The notes under the pieces are model-generated. The model was not told the DNA's origin. It did not search any database and saw only the letters and a program-made list of their open reading frames with translations. Made by a program: the position numbers and the translations under genes. Below are positions 1 through 35,567 of a DNA stretch of 35,567 nucleotides, in pieces; position 1 is the first letter of the stretch; each line of letters starts with the position of its first letter. Source of the stretch: a virus; the IMG/VR virus record IMGVR_UViG_3300047195_000698, positions 1 through 35,567 of that record; one strand, written 5' to 3'.

Positions 1-127
1 AAAGACTCAAGAGATGCTCACAAAACCACTCAAATAATTGGCCTGGGGCTACATGCCATCGGTACACTCAAATTGCGATTTGAGTGAAGCCGTAGAAGCC
101 CCATCCTTCAGGGTGGGGAGTAGTCAC
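1..127 (+). mobile_element. tnpB 3'-end / omega-RNA remnant, copy 1
   Basis: This stretch is identical over all 127 bases to 962-1088. Its 3' end (GAAGCCCC, short hairpin, GGTGGGGAGTAGTCAC) matches the layout of the 3' end of the intact tnpB element at 20608-20666 (GAAGCCCC, hairpin, GGTGGGGAGTGGTCAC). Frame 1 encodes a degenerate TnpB C-terminus: RDAHKTTQIIGLGLHAIGT aligns with RDQNAALNILRLGLQSLGQ of the TnpB at 19474. I read it as a decayed IS200/IS605-type right end that keeps the guide-RNA scaffold region. The left limit may lie outside the window. If transcribed, the bases after 127 would be the guide. Confidence 0.75.
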
Positions 128-636: not shown

Positions 637-831
637 ATGTCTGTCACCAAAGCAATAGAGCTATTAGATATCTGGATTAATTTTTATTCCAAAGGAGGAG
701 GAAGGGCACATGGGCCAGATCAAGCCGCACTTGAAAAGATACGCGCTGAACTAGAACGGAATGATATGAAATATTTATCTCACGGGGTTAAGGGGCCAAG
801 AAGACCCCAGGGCGAAGGTCAAGAGACCTGA
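637..831 (+). CDS. 5' part of a gene interrupted by a 307-bp insertion
   Basis: The open frame encodes 64 aa, but only the first 48 or so residues belong to the original gene; the tail after MKYLSH is encoded by the inserted element. Removing 782-1088 joins TCTC to ATTTA and restores an in-frame reading: MKYLSH continues as LKQEGEGCDYTIGCG and on into the frame at 1151. The restored ORF would have about 145 codons. Alternatively translation of the downstream protein began at the internal ATG (766), which from memory resembles the usual N-terminus of the small EGCDYTIGCG-type viral proteins. Function is unknown. The ribosome-binding site GGTGGGAG precedes the ATG. Confidence 0.6.
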   Translation: MSVTKAIELLDIWINFYSKGGGRAHGPDQAALEKIRAELERNDMKYLSHGVKGPRRPQGEGQET

Positions 832-871
832 GACCCTCGCCCTTCAGGGTAGGGATGAATTGGCCCCTTAA
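788..871. repeat. Nested hairpin inside the insertion
   Basis: TTAAGGGGCCAA (788-799) and TTGGCCCCTTAA (860-871) are a perfect 12-bp inverted repeat. Inside it AGGGCGA pairs with TCGCCCT and AGGTC with GACCT around an AAGA loop. The bases at 831-858 (ACCCTCGCCCTTCAGGGTAG and on) resemble a diverged version of the GAAGCCCC...TTCAGGGTGGGGAGT omega-RNA end, so this could be the subterminal palindrome of an IS end or a second, unrelated omega-RNA-like end. Confidence 0.6.
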
Positions 872-961
872 AGGATTACTTTCTTGCGCCTCCATCTTAA
901 GCGAAAAGTATAAATATCATTAGGTTATATAGATATTGTTTGGTTTGTCTCTAGCAGTTGA

Positions 962-1088
962 AAAGACTCAAGAGATGCTCACAAAACCACTCAAATAATT
1001 GGCCTGGGGCTACATGCCATCGGTACACTCAAATTGCGATTTGAGTGAAGCCGTAGAAGCCCCATCCTTCAGGGTGGGGAGTAGTCAC
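962..1088 (+). mobile_element. tnpB 3'-end / omega-RNA remnant, copy 2
   Basis: This is identical to 1-127, which implies a recent duplication or gene conversion. A TATA-like element 45-60 bases upstream (AAAAGTATAAATA, 904-916) could drive a short RNA ending in the GTAGTCAC scaffold end. The presumptive guide would be the first bases of the interrupted gene (from 1089). Confidence 0.75.
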
Positions 1089-1150
1089 ATTTAAAACAAG
1101 AAGGCGAGGGGTGTGATTATACTATTGGATGTGGTAGTGTATTAATTCCC

Positions 1151-1381
1151 TTGACGGAAGATACAGAAAAGGAAATAAAATCAGTTTTAGAACATTATGG
1201 GGTTATTAATGACGAGGAAAGGCGATTATCAGAATGTATGGTGTTTGAGTATTTCTTTGATGTAATGCCACTTTATGATGCTTTAGTTAAAGAAAGTCAA
1301 AATATAGAGTATGAGCAAAAGAAAAGAGATTTGGTTAAAGCCATCAATAAAATGACAGAAGAGTATATTTCTATGAAGTAG
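1151..1381 (+). CDS. 3' part of the interrupted gene
   Basis: The frame is open from 1085, just inside the insertion, and reads HLKQEGEGCDYTIGCG before the first usable start, a TTG at 1151. The 76-aa remnant is acidic and helical (EDTEKEIKSVLEHYG, later EYEQKKRDLVKAINKM). The EGCDYTIGCG segment looks like the most conserved part and lies upstream of the TTG, so the product from this start is probably truncated and may not be functional. Unknown function. Confidence 0.5.
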   Translation: MTEDTEKEIKSVLEHYGVINDEERRLSECMVFEYFFDVMPLYDALVKESQNIEYEQKKRDLVKAINKMTEEYISMK

Positions 1382-19115: not shown

Positions 19116-19442
19116 ATGAAAATGACTATTGAGATGGATGTAAATCGGGAGCAAGCTATAACGCTCCGCGAGATGTTTAAATATTGGAATAGACTTGCTG
19201 GAATTGGATCAAGTAGATATGTTGCATTTTTTGTAGATGGGGATGGAAATTTTCATCCAGACATAAAAATGGAGTTCTCTGAAGAATTACCTAAACTTGA
19301 AGAAAAATATTTAGAATCTGCAATAAAGAAAAATCCACATGGTTATAAGGTTTATGAAGGTGATAGATTCTATGACTTTGATCCAATAGGCTGGGCTCTT
19401 TTAAAGAAAGAACACCCGGAAGAGTTTAAGCGAAAAGTATAA
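19116..19442 (+). CDS. Hypothetical protein (108 aa), 3' end in the IS left end
   Basis: It begins MKMTIEMDVNREQAITLREM and contains VAFFVDGDGNFHPDIKMEF, a pattern seen in small phage proteins. The C-terminal FKRKV and stop fall inside the 20-bp segment shared with the insertion at 897, so the last residues may be encoded by the transposon and the original gene may have been slightly different. Confidence 0.6.
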   Translation: MKMTIEMDVNREQAITLREMFKYWNRLAGIGSSRYVAFFVDGDGNFHPDIKMEFSEELPKLEEKYLESAIKKNPHGYKVYEGDRFYDFDPIGWALLKKEHPEEFKRKV

Positions 19443-20666
19443 ATACTATGAAGTACATAATACCAAGAGTCCTATGACTAAGAAAACCTATAAATTTAGG
19501 ATTTTTCCTTCTAAGGAACAAGTCCGTATCTTGAACGAGACGCTTGATCTTTGTAGGTGGACCTATAATCAAACCTTGGCTTACAGAAAGAACCTTTGGG
19601 AAACTGAGCAGAAAAATACATCTAAGTACGATTCTCATTATTTGCTCCCTATTTGGAAACAGGAAAAGCCGGAGCTAAAAAATGTATTCTCACAGGCGCT
19701 CCAGAATGTTCAGGAAAGAGTAGACTTGGCTTTTCAAGCATTCTTCCGTAGAGTAAAGGCTCACGAAAATCCGGGCTATCCTAGATTCAAGGGAAAGGGT
19801 TGGTATGATAGTTTTACCTATCCTCAGTCTGGGTTCGGACTTAAAGATGATAAGATCCTTTGGCTTTCCAAGATTGGTGAAATCAAGATAAAACTTCATA
19901 GAAAAATTGAAGGCACAATAAAGAGGCTTACGATCAACAGATCAACACGAGGAAAGTGGCATGTGTCTTTTTCTGTAGAACAACGGTTAAATCACGATTT
20001 AACTGAACCCCAGGTTTCACACAGCGATTTGGTTATAGGCATTGATCTTGGTTTAACTAGTTTCGCCACTTTCTCGGACGGTAGCAAAATTGAGAACCCT
20101 AGGTTTTTTAGAATCGAAGAAAGGGCGCTCTCTAAAACCCAATCCAAAAGAGATAAGTTGCCGAAGGGTTCGTTAGAGAGGAACAAAGTAACTAAAGTTG
20201 TACGAAGAATTCATGAGAGAATTGCCAATAAAAGGCTGAATTTCGCACATCAACTCAGTCATGATTTGGTGGAGAAATACGGAATTCTTTGCTTTGAAGA
20301 TTTGAATATAAAAACCATGATGCAGACTGCTCCGCGCAGTCTAGCCAAGAGCATATCCGACGCTTCTTGGAACTTTCTAGTAAGACTAACACAGTACAAG
20401 GCTGAAAGTGCTGGTAGTGTAGTGGTTTTAGTAGATCCAAAGAATACGTCCCAAATGTGCTCAAGGTGCGGGGTAATTGTACCCAAAGACCTCTCTGTTC
20501 GAGTCCATAAATGTACTTGTGGATTAGAAATGGATAGGGATCAAAACGCCGCATTGAATATTTTGAGACTGGGACTACAGTCTCTCGGCCAAATAAAACG
20601 GGTCGTAGAAGCCCCGCTCTTTCACCCGAATTGTTATTCGGGTGCTTTAGGGTGGGGAGTGGTCAC
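19426..20666 (+). mobile_element. TnpB-only IS200/IS605-type element
   Basis: The left limit is set by TTAAGCGAAAAGTATAAATA (19426-19445), identical to 897-916 in the non-autonomous element; the right limit by the GGTGGGGAGTGGTCAC omega-RNA end shared, with small changes, with 1-127 and 962-1088. It carries tnpB but no tnpA transposase, so movement would need one supplied elsewhere. Exact ends are uncertain by several bases. Confidence 0.7.
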
Positions 20667-20685
20667 ACTTAGCAAACCTATATAG
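19474..20685 (+). CDS. tnpB: TnpB RNA-guided nuclease
   Basis: TnpB proteins are RNA-guided DNA endonucleases, ancestors of Cas12, using an omega RNA from the element's right end. The N-terminus (KFRIFPSKEQVRILNETL, RWTYNQTL) is the usual helix-turn-helix region. The RuvC-like residues are present: D191 in GIDLG, E275 in FEDLN, and DRDQNAALNIL around D356. The zinc ribbon is CSRCG (near 329) with CTCG. The 403-aa protein appears complete and active. A TATA box (AAAAGTATAAATAC) is about 32 bases before the ATG. The last 30 codons overlap the omega-RNA region. Confidence 0.93.
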   Translation: MTKKTYKFRIFPSKEQVRILNETLDLCRWTYNQTLAYRKNLWETEQKNTSKYDSHYLLPIWKQEKPELKNVFSQALQNVQERVDLAFQAFFRRVKAHENPGYPRFKGKGWYDSFTYPQSGFGLKDDKILWLSKIGEIKIKLHRKIEGTIKRLTINRSTRGKWHVSFSVEQRLNHDLTEPQVSHSDLVIGIDLGLTSFATFSDGSKIENPRFFRIEERALSKTQSKRDKLPKGSLERNKVTKVVRRIHERIANKRLNFAHQLSHDLVEKYGILCFEDLNIKTMMQTAPRSLAKSISDASWNFLVRLTQYKAESAGSVVVLVDPKNTSQMCSRCGVIVPKDLSVRVHKCTCGLEMDRDQNAALNILRLGLQSLGQIKRVVEAPLFHPNCYSGALGWGVVTLSKPI

Positions 20686-20686
20686 C
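20540..20686 (+). ncRNA. Predicted omega RNA with guide
   Basis: The 3' scaffold has nested stems: GCCCC with GGGG outside and CACCCGAA (20623-20630) with TTCGGGTG (20637-20644) around a TTGTTA loop, ending at GGTCAC (20666). By analogy with studied TnpB systems the following ~16-20 bases (ACTTAGCAAACCTATATAGC) would be the guide. The 5' end is not known and is set arbitrarily. Confidence 0.6.
20677..20686 (+). promoter_or_regulatory. TATA-like promoter next to the IS right end
   Basis: CCTATATAGC lies about 24 bases before the ATG at 20704, and overlaps the predicted guide of the omega RNA. The IS may have inserted just upstream of this promoter. Confidence 0.45.
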
Positions 20687-20703
20687 GTATCAAGGTAAAA
20701 ACC

Positions 20704-22017
20704 ATGACAGAAAAAACCTTTAATTTAGAGGCCTCGATTCAACGCGGAATTGAAGCCACGGGTCTAACGACCGAAGTATTTACAGACAAGTATAGCCAGA
20801 AGATTAAGGTTCTGAAGGATGGGAAAGTCAAGCCCATGACTTACAGGACGAAGGAAGGAGAAGAAAAGATCCTAACTGTAGAAGAAATGGCGGTTAATCA
20901 GGTTATTTCCTGTGAAAAAGCTGCGTCCAAGGGAGTTACCGAAGTTCTGATGCACATCGAATCTCAGGACCCCGTGGCTCTTACAAAGACCAACAGGCCA
21001 TATAGCAATATCTATATAGTGGTTCCTGTTGGGAATAACAAGGAGCTGTTCCACGATGAGCCGCAGGTTGAGGGTTGTGTAAAAGTTAAGGCTACCCATT
21101 GGTCCGATAAGTCTTTCAGGCCTGGGTTCTATAGAGCAAAACTCAGCAAGAAGATGAACGAGTGGAATGGTCGCATGATTGCGAACTATAAGCTCGATGA
21201 TATTGGAACAACCGAGAGGACTTTTACGGTTCCTGAGAACATGGGAGAAGGAAAGGCCACGGCATTTAGAGTACTGTCTGCCTTCGAAGCGAAGCCCGTT
21301 ATGAGCACCAAGAAAGATGCTGATGGAGAAGGGATGAAGGATGAAGAAGGAAATTGGATTCGCGAACCCAGGTTCAGAAACAAGAACGGAATCCAGGAAC
21401 CTCTTATGTCTCGATCTATGGAACTCTTAATTCAGAATCCCGATGGAACTAAGTCTGTAAGAATGGTTAGTACCGTGTTCGACGAATGGATGGGGATTCA
21501 AATAGATCCAAGTCAAACCTACAAAGGAATCCTGCGGGAAAACGGGGTTTATTTGAACTTAAACTCCGTGCCCATTAAGTCTAATGAGAAGATCGAGATG
21601 GACGATAGTGTTCTCTGTGATGTCCTTGCAGACCTTTCTGATCTTAGGGCGCATATCGGGAAATTTGTGAAGCTTCGACCCATGTTTGGAGATGCTCCGG
21701 TAGAAGGAAAAGAGAACCCAGAGAAAAAGACCAAGATCTCCTACACAACGATCACAGATATGAGTGCAACGAGCGTCACTATCATCGGAGATCCGTCTGT
21801 GTTCGATTCTGTTATTGATAAAACTGGTAAGATGGCCGGAATTGTGCAGGTTATTGGTAGGGTAAATCATAACAAGAAGACAGATAGCGTAAGTATCTGG
21901 ACCTATCTTATAACTGATATCAGCAAGGGAATGCCCTCGGAGCCGATTAAGATTGATGAGAGCCGCGGAGCTAAGAAGGCTAGTGTGGCAGAGAATAGTA
22001 CGACGGACGCTTGGTAA
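20704..22017 (+). CDS. Probable ssDNA-binding / replication protein (437 aa)
   Basis: I do not recognise a firm family. The build suggests several beta-barrel (OB-like) domains: VLMHIESQDPVALTKTNRPY, later TITDMSATSVTIIGD and MAGIVQVIGRVNHNKKTDSV, SIWTYLITDI. The C-terminus is polar and flexible. Codons ending in G or C (AAG, GAG, ATC, GAC) are more frequent than in neighbours, which suggests strong expression, as expected for an ssDNA-binding protein. Its place beside polymerase and ligases agrees. A virion protein is the alternative. Confidence 0.4.
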   Translation: MTEKTFNLEASIQRGIEATGLTTEVFTDKYSQKIKVLKDGKVKPMTYRTKEGEEKILTVEEMAVNQVISCEKAASKGVTEVLMHIESQDPVALTKTNRPYSNIYIVVPVGNNKELFHDEPQVEGCVKVKATHWSDKSFRPGFYRAKLSKKMNEWNGRMIANYKLDDIGTTERTFTVPENMGEGKATAFRVLSAFEAKPVMSTKKDADGEGMKDEEGNWIREPRFRNKNGIQEPLMSRSMELLIQNPDGTKSVRMVSTVFDEWMGIQIDPSQTYKGILRENGVYLNLNSVPIKSNEKIEMDDSVLCDVLADLSDLRAHIGKFVKLRPMFGDAPVEGKENPEKKTKISYTTITDMSATSVTIIGDPSVFDSVIDKTGKMAGIVQVIGRVNHNKKTDSVSIWTYLITDISKGMPSEPIKIDESRGAKKASVAENSTTDAW

Positions 22018-34058: not shown

Positions 34059-34222
34059 CTGATTAAGAAGTTGGGCAAAATACTTATGTCATATTTTAAA
34101 AATATGAATTATATATTTTTGAGCCGCAGCAAGAAAATATATCGTAATTCATCAGAATAAAATTTCCGTTTGAGCGTTTCAGCGAAATTATATTTCGTTT
34201 TATTCATCAGAATTAAATTCGG
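34059..34222. other. AT-rich intergenic region with short repeats
   Basis: 164 bases between two minus-strand genes. ATTCATCAGAAT occurs at 34147-34158 and again at 34202-34213; CGAAAT, TAT, ATTTCG (34183-34197) is an inverted repeat. On the minus strand an AAGTATTTTG element lies about 25-30 bases before the start at 34058 and may be its promoter. No gene is seen. Confidence 0.45.
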
Positions 34223-34566: not shown

Positions 34567-35567
34567 TTACACCGCCACTCCCATCAAAATCCAGCGGTTA
34601 GTAGTTCCCGCAATGTAAACCAATGTTGCCATTCCTGCGTTATTTGTCGAAACAGTCCCGCCCGTTGATGTCATAATGCGGTTTGCGGCATCAGATGTCG
34701 CATTATTTACAAACCCCATATCATTTGAAAGAGGGTTATAAATATACAAAACCGCCCCATCCGTTCCACCAGCAAAACCAGTGATCGTAAAATTACCGGT
34801 CGGACCCGCTATGACATAAACTCGAACTCCAGCCGTTAGAGCTATATTACTATTTGCGCCATTTGCTAGAGTTAAAGTTCCGCTTGGACGAGCAATATCC
34901 TGAATATTGAGCTGCCTAAATGTTGGAGTCGCAGCCGCAGCACCAACAGCCGGACCCGAAAGAACTGTACTTGCTGTCTGCGTATCAAGACTTATAGCTT
35001 GTCCTGTTAGGTCCATTAAACCTGTTGCGCTTGCTGCTAGTGTTACAGCAGGAGCCGCAGACAAAGCCGCTGTAGCAAAGTCCGAGACATCTGTACTAGA
35101 CAGGGTTCTAAAGGTTGGAGTGGCGTCTGCGCCCGCTGCGGGACCAGCTAAGATAGTATTTTTGACCTGCGTATCAAGACTTATAGCCTGACCAGTTAAG
35201 TCCATTAAACCTGTTGCGCTTGCTGCTAGTGTTACAGCTGGAGCGGCAACAAGAGCAGCCGCAGAAAAGTCTGATATATCTGCACTTGATAAAACTCTCA
35301 TAGTGGGCTTCGCCGCGCCACCAGAAGCCGGTCCCGCAAGAACTTTATTTGCAGTTTGTGTATTAAAGTCTATTTCTTGAGTGGAAAGGTCAAGAACAGT
35401 ATCTGCTGCTACACTAAGAGTTACTGGAGGCGCATCTAAAACCGTCTGGGTATGAAAATCTGAGATATCTGCATGAGAAAGTATTCTGAATGTGGGTGCC
35501 GCCGCTGGATCTGCCGCAGGTCCTGAGAGAACTGTATTTTTGGCTTGAGTGTCAAGACTAACCGCCT
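34567..35567 (-). CDS. Tail fibre, repeat-containing, incomplete at the window edge
   Basis: The minus-strand frame is open from the window end to the stop at 34567-34569, so the N-terminus lies outside. At least three repeats of 63 residues (189 bases) are seen, with the core PTFRxLSSADISDF, APAVTLAASATGLMDLTGQ, AISLDTQ and VLAGPAxG. After them comes a C-terminal domain (GTLTLANGANSNIALTAG, GGTDGAVLYIYN, ending RWILMGVAV) like the tip of phage tail fibres. An internal ATG at 35299 is not the true start. Its job would be host recognition. Confidence 0.8.
   Translation of the reverse strand, partial: AVSLDTQAKNTVLSGPAADPAAAPTFRILSHADISDFHTQTVLDAPPVTLSVAADTVLDLSTQEIDFNTQTANKVLAGPASGGAAKPTMRVLSSADISDFSAAALVAAPAVTLAASATGLMDLTGQAISLDTQVKNTILAGPAAGADATPTFRTLSSTDVSDFATAALSAAPAVTLAASATGLMDLTGQAISLDTQTASTVLSGPAVGAAAATPTFRQLNIQDIARPSGTLTLANGANSNIALTAGVRVYVIAGPTGNFTITGFAGGTDGAVLYIYNPLSNDMGFVNNATSDAANRIMTSTGGTVSTNNAGMATLVYIAGTTNRWILMGVAV
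35011..35239. repeat. 189-bp coding repeats in the tail fibre
   Basis: GTCCATTAAACCTGTTGCGC begins at 35011 and again at 35200; the flanking 60 bases are nearly identical, while the third unit (35380 onwards) has diverged. The near identity of two units suggests recent duplication or conversion. Confidence 0.7.

Follow-up and report, generated by a model that had tools for sequence, protein, structure and literature searches.

What interrupts a small gene near the left edge of IMG/VR virus record IMGVR_UViG_3300047195_000698, and exactly where does the insertion begin and end? In the window, which is the whole record (35,567 bases), an open reading frame at 637-831 runs into foreign DNA and then meets a stop codon, while an open frame resumes at 1091-1381 to the right of the insertion. 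Joining the flanks yields a single frame to the stop at 1381, whether 782-1088 or 779-1088 is removed. An earlier note on this DNA had proposed that both halves belong to one gene, and we agree with it because uninterrupted homologues span the junction (L005/L006 4986-5288, L042 and LR756501). The two halves are thus not confined to separate genes; for the sequence before 766, the databases searched gave no homologue. Homology to L042 is a short conserved stretch, and LR756501, a 735-kb uncultured phage, was besides chance matches the only relative of the interrupted gene in phage and plasmid searches. No element-free version of this virus, which would show the exact empty site, was found.

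We consider it highly probable that a non-autonomous element of 310 bp (PATE/MITE) inserted 3' of TTTAT and broke a gene of about 101 codons, and that this element is an internal-deletion derivative of an IS-tnpB unit. Subterminal palindromes at both ends and the lack of terminal inverted repeats are as in the IS200/IS605 family, and folding of the DNA at 770-1100 gave a z of -4.6. No nuclease gene lies within the element. The IS200/IS605-type, TnpB-derived origin suggested earlier is borne out by the omegaRNA model match and by a target and ends common to tnpB- and tnpA-bearing relatives, the right end and omegaRNA recurring in viral and Halobacteriota tnpB loci. The promoter-like block, which resembles one upstream of tnpB in a second virus (record G001), may act as a promoter. 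A coding likeness between the element and the C-terminus of TnpB was dropped, since shuffled sequences score equally. Feature coordinates are collected in Table 1.

Table 1. Coordinates of the interrupted gene, the inserted element and related features in the window.
Feature	Position	Strand	Basis
Right-end part of a second element copy	1-127	+	100% identical to 962-1088; 31-127 matches omegaRNA model
43-codon 5' extension of the ORF, in the gene's frame	637-765	+	Open frame directly after stop of 160-636
Beginning of the broken gene (ATG AAA TAT TTA T..), up to and including TTTAT	766-778	+	Homologue L005 (MYYLYMKQ) starts at the same point
Target 5-mer TTTAT, expected to serve as the TnpB transposon-associated motif as well	774-778	+	Same 5-mer left of independent copies
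Non-autonomous IS200/IS605-type element (PATE/MITE), 310 bp, without TnpA or TnpB ORF	779-1088	+	92% identical copy in G001; ends shared with tnpB elements
Left-end palindromes (TTAAGGGGCCAA/TTGGCCCCTTAA, inner AGGGCGAAGGTC/GACCCTCGCCCT)	788-871	+	Inverted repeats; 23/23 nt left-end match in G376
Archaeal-type promoter-like block TTAAGCGAAAAGTATAAATA	897-916	+	20/20 nt shared with 19426-19445, which lies upstream of the resident tnpB; E 6e-5
OmegaRNA scaffold/right end, remnant of tnpB 3' end, ending GTCAC	992-1088	+	Covariance model R1, 59.5 bits, E 5.6e-12
Guide predicted for the element's omegaRNA, 16 nt (ATTTAAAACAAGAAGG); follows TTTAT in the empty site	1089-1104	+	Putative, by analogy with ISDra2 reRNA (PMC8612924)
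Remainder of the broken gene, 3' side (..LKQEGEGCDYTIGCG...)	1089-1381	+	88-91 residues align with L005/L006 at 42-44% identity
The virus's own tnpB unit, with promoter-like block, ORF of TnpB (19474-20685) and omegaRNA/right end (20557-20666, ending GTGGTCAC)	19425-20685	+	Pfam, omegaRNA model, PDB 8bf8

The omegaRNA covariance model was built from the 3' ends of 14 viral tnpB loci; sequences of the window and of G001 were excluded. It matches both right-end stretches of the window with the same score and the G001 copy at 66.1 bits, as well as the tnpB 3' ends of both viruses (56.2 bits for the window tnpB). In an alignment of 17 sequences, 95% of the cells are paired, two-sided changes occur in 14 of the 15 pairs, and covariation is 0.81 vs 0.19 when shuffled; pairing in these 17 sequences falls to 40-52% when the partners are shifted by 1-3 columns. 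One hairpin is short in the G001 copy and long at the same place in the window copy. By this model, the omegaRNA scaffold of the element appears complete.

The earlier note placed the element at 782-1088 (307 bp) with ends defined to within one base. While the element is real and its right end at 1088 stands, that left end is very probably three bases short, and 779-1088 is the best-supported extent. The reading frame cannot fix the ends to one base because CTCAC (779-783) resembles GTCAC (1084-1088), and eight 307-bp removals (777-1083 to 784-1090) yield the identical protein MKYLSHLKQ... Removal of 779-1088 is in frame as well, gives MKYLYLKQ... and agrees with the TTTAT target of independent insertions. 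Rejoined in this way the gene reads MKYLYLKQEGEGCDYTIGCG, next to MYYLYMKQEGEGCDYTIGCG in its nearest homologue; with an insertion after TTTAT that duplicates nothing, the result is MKYLYLKQEGEG..., and this can be aligned gap-free to MYYLYMKQEGEG... of that homologue. The absence of a target duplication, already claimed for this insertion, holds for the joined flanks and for the other copies. TTTAT lies to the left of the window copy, of the G001 copy (locus L004) and of the left end in G376:C12, and in the printed flanks of five viral tnpB relatives (L023, L025, L026, L027 and L029) the left ends directly follow it. All right ends of the element and its tnpB relatives finish with TCAC, most of them with GTCAC. 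When all in-frame junctions were scored against three homologues, the nearest preferred 310 bp (109 vs 84), whereas the two distant ones preferred 307 bp (L042, 92 vs 76; LR756501, 66 vs 58), because the distance between their Met and the conserved Gln suits the shorter removal better. The totals of 243 for 310 bp and 242 for 307 bp nearly tie, so our choice rests mainly on the target-site rule. An element of 307 bp would leave a left flank ending in ATCTC, which is found at no other copy, and in our interpretive reading of the G001 copy, TTTAT followed by TGTAATCC forms a zinc finger spaced exactly as its neighbour; we therefore regard 782-1088 as improbable. An empty site reading TTTATATTTAAAACAAGAAGG would be incompatible with it, the junction expected for 779-1088 being TTTAT followed by ATTTAAAA. 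A literature search for TTTAT as a target returned nothing useful. As for the gene itself, the joined frame had been described as an ORF of about 145 codons; the frame is restored, but about 101 codons are supported and the rest is an unsupported extension from 637. The conserved block Q.G.GCDYTI.CG sits 8-10 residues after the start codon in L005/L006, L042 and the 735-kb phage, which puts the beginning of the homologous gene at the equivalent of Met766 (MKYLY). All three distinct homologues (L005, L042 and LR756501) begin there and none has the 637-765 part, so that the longer gene is unsupported. A two-domain protein genuinely starting at 637, with the insertion in the middle of its gene, is the less probable reading. 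In its favour, no stop codon occurs across 637-778, and the ORF, preceded by purine-rich sequence, begins immediately behind a stop codon. Against it stand the start of the homologues and an extension with no homologue in phages; nothing clearly similar was seen elsewhere in the searches, and the best PHROG match is weak (E 0.028). The extension may be a fused domain, a small separate ORF or spurious.

Could the gene be intact in the real virus, or still functional despite the insertion? The contig opens with a piece of the same element: positions 1-127 and 962-1088 agree over exactly 127 nt and diverge from the next base on, a pattern suggesting that the assembly graph broke at a repeat (k = 127) and implying a second element copy at the left contig edge, one that the earlier note did not mention. 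Such a break is what an assembly artefact or a mixture of strains might also leave behind. Nevertheless, the insertion follows the TTTAT/GTCAC rules of its family, both of its flanks lie within one continuous gene, and a comparable gene-splitting copy occurs in the independent contig G001, making an artefact very improbable. Removal of the insert from RNA is scarcely credible. IStrons, a known type, join a group I intron to an IS605-type element, and an insert of this kind could leave the gene functional; yet Rfam at gathering thresholds gave no match in the window, hence no group I intron core, and the 310 bp hold only a left end, a promoter-like block and a tnpB-type omegaRNA. This idea was dropped. 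At the other edge of the contig, 34567-35567 contains repeated segments (..GTATCAAGACTTATAGC.., about 190 bp apart) in a repetitive fibre-like gene running towards the contig end.

An inserted 310-bp element without transposase needs a source of mobility. Y1 TnpA was searched for in the window and in G001 and found in neither; one is present in each of two archaeal genomes with matching ends, G376 and G220. The left-end/palindrome region of G376, a Halobacteriota genome, is identical to the element over 23/23 nt, and G220 carries two tnpB genes 64-65% identical to that of the window, with the right end GGGGAGTAGTCAC. In a further tnpB-bearing virus record, G396, a partial Y1 TnpA domain sits immediately upstream of tnpB. 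The exact right-end pattern had no match in 84,980 species genomes. Five matches to a shorter pattern were taken as chance, as none was accompanied by a tnpB reading frame. A host probably provided, in trans, the TnpA that moved the element. Because of the matches to G376, G220 and G396 and the TATA-like block, an archaeal host appears likely from sequence comparison, and the virus is apparently archaeal.

The same virus encodes an intact-looking TnpB at 19474-20685, apparently full-length. It has the Pfam domains Cas12f1-like_TNB, OrfB_IS605 and HTH, matches the solved TnpB structure PDB 8bf8 (E 1.8e-49) and contains, by reading, the expected RuvC active-site motifs GIDLG, FEDLN and DRDQNAA. 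No left-end palindrome was recognised for this tnpB unit, and no relatives were found for the gene to its right (20704-22014). The DNA of the unit (19425-20666) is 86% identical to the tnpB unit of an otherwise unrelated virus, and exchange of the tnpB unit between viruses is likely.

A second copy of the element lies in the otherwise unrelated virus G001 (IMGVR_UViG_3300037264_009889), likewise 3' of TTTAT and likewise splitting a gene. It is 92% identical to window 774-1088, so that the shared stretch opens with TTTAT in both viruses; apart from this, the two records share no more than the tnpB unit and a stretch of 44 bp. The gene split in G001 (L004 2221-2858) has C-x2-C...FC zinc-finger-like repeats, and their spacing is restored if the element starts after TTTAT. 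The 44-bp stretch at window 34077-34120 is 93% identical, in inverted orientation, to G001 20796-20839, a short way downstream of tnpB in that record, and includes the AT-rich motif AATTCATATTTTTAAAATATG, which also follows a gene end in L045.

Both flanks of the G001 tnpB (L037 18326-19471, L038 718-750; G001 19464-20750) correspond to the same gene end. A gene ending in VISYRDKWSA* precedes tnpB, and GTGATTAGTTATAGAGATAAATGGTCGGCGTAA directly after the right end spells VISYRDKWSA* in other codons. In the related viral contigs L045 and L046 this gene end occurs once and is not followed by tnpB; it resembles the right-hand G001 copy (92% over 26 nt), which is the predicted guide; the left-hand gene end is therefore the recoded one. 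The G001 tnpB looks like a homing-type insertion, in which the host gene would be kept intact and its recoded target would escape the element's own guide. Among 18 tnpB loci, G001 is the only clear case of a recoded gene end, and the window's own tnpB shows none. At L018 the recoded-end score is barely above shuffles (35 vs 33), but the match crosses a stop codon.

Elements consisting only of ends have been described before, including one in an archaeal virus, and the window element adds to them. Some palindrome-associated transposable elements (PATEs) of Haloquadratum arose by core deletion of IS605-type transposons; like the window element, they have IS605-related near-terminal palindromes and no inverted terminal repeats (PMC3119063), whereas ours sits in a virus contig and has a complete omegaRNA scaffold according to the covariance model. 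The tailed archaeal virus HRTV-DL1 carries a PATE that is also non-coding, IS605-derived and within an archaeal virus, with strong transcription reported from its end; unlike the window element it is 489 bp long, spans the gap between two ORFs and is shared with a known host, and the available part of that report gives no omegaRNA model (PMC10544981). A PATE-like element of Halanaerobium hydrogeniformans has the same anatomy, with part of the left end, the last 58 nt of tnpB and the right end, but lies in a bacterial chromosome and differs in sequence (PMC7290912). In ISDra2 the right flank provides the guide of the TnpB reRNA, and the target pentanucleotide doubles as the adjacent motif of the nuclease (PMC8612924). 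The resident TnpB of the window, homologous to a solved TnpB, compares well with this system, although ISDra2 is complete with tnpA and tnpB and its target is TTGAT instead of TTTAT (PMC8612924). For plasmids, drive of an insertion sequence by TnpB has already been described (PMC11870625).

The history of the element may be pictured as follows. An IS-tnpB unit would have lost its core, so that neither tnpB nor tnpA is left, and kept the left-end palindromes, the promoter-like block and the omegaRNA scaffold with the right end. This remnant could then have been mobilised as a single strand by "peel-and-paste" transposition, with TnpA acting in trans from an archaeal host. Once inserted, it may be transcribed into an omegaRNA whose guide would be the right flank. 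The TnpB encoded at 19474-20685 could possibly use this omegaRNA and cut empty sites consisting of TTTAT and ATTTAAAACAAGAAGG, and such cutting would favour retention of the element. A more far-reaching variant, which we think rather doubtful, is that the element serves as a stand-alone guide-RNA gene: an omegaRNA from its own promoter would, with TnpB in trans, cut genomes of co-infecting viruses that lack the insertion, resulting in RNA-guided drive between viruses.

The locus offers a protein-less relative of TnpB whose ends, target and omegaRNA are well defined, and the apparently archaeal virus that carries it also encodes a matching TnpB. It makes testable the question of whether one resident TnpB serves the guide RNAs of separate protein-less elements. 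Without such use in trans, the insertion would be a routine transposition event that hit a small gene of the virus; if such use does occur, supposed dead remnants would be active guide genes.
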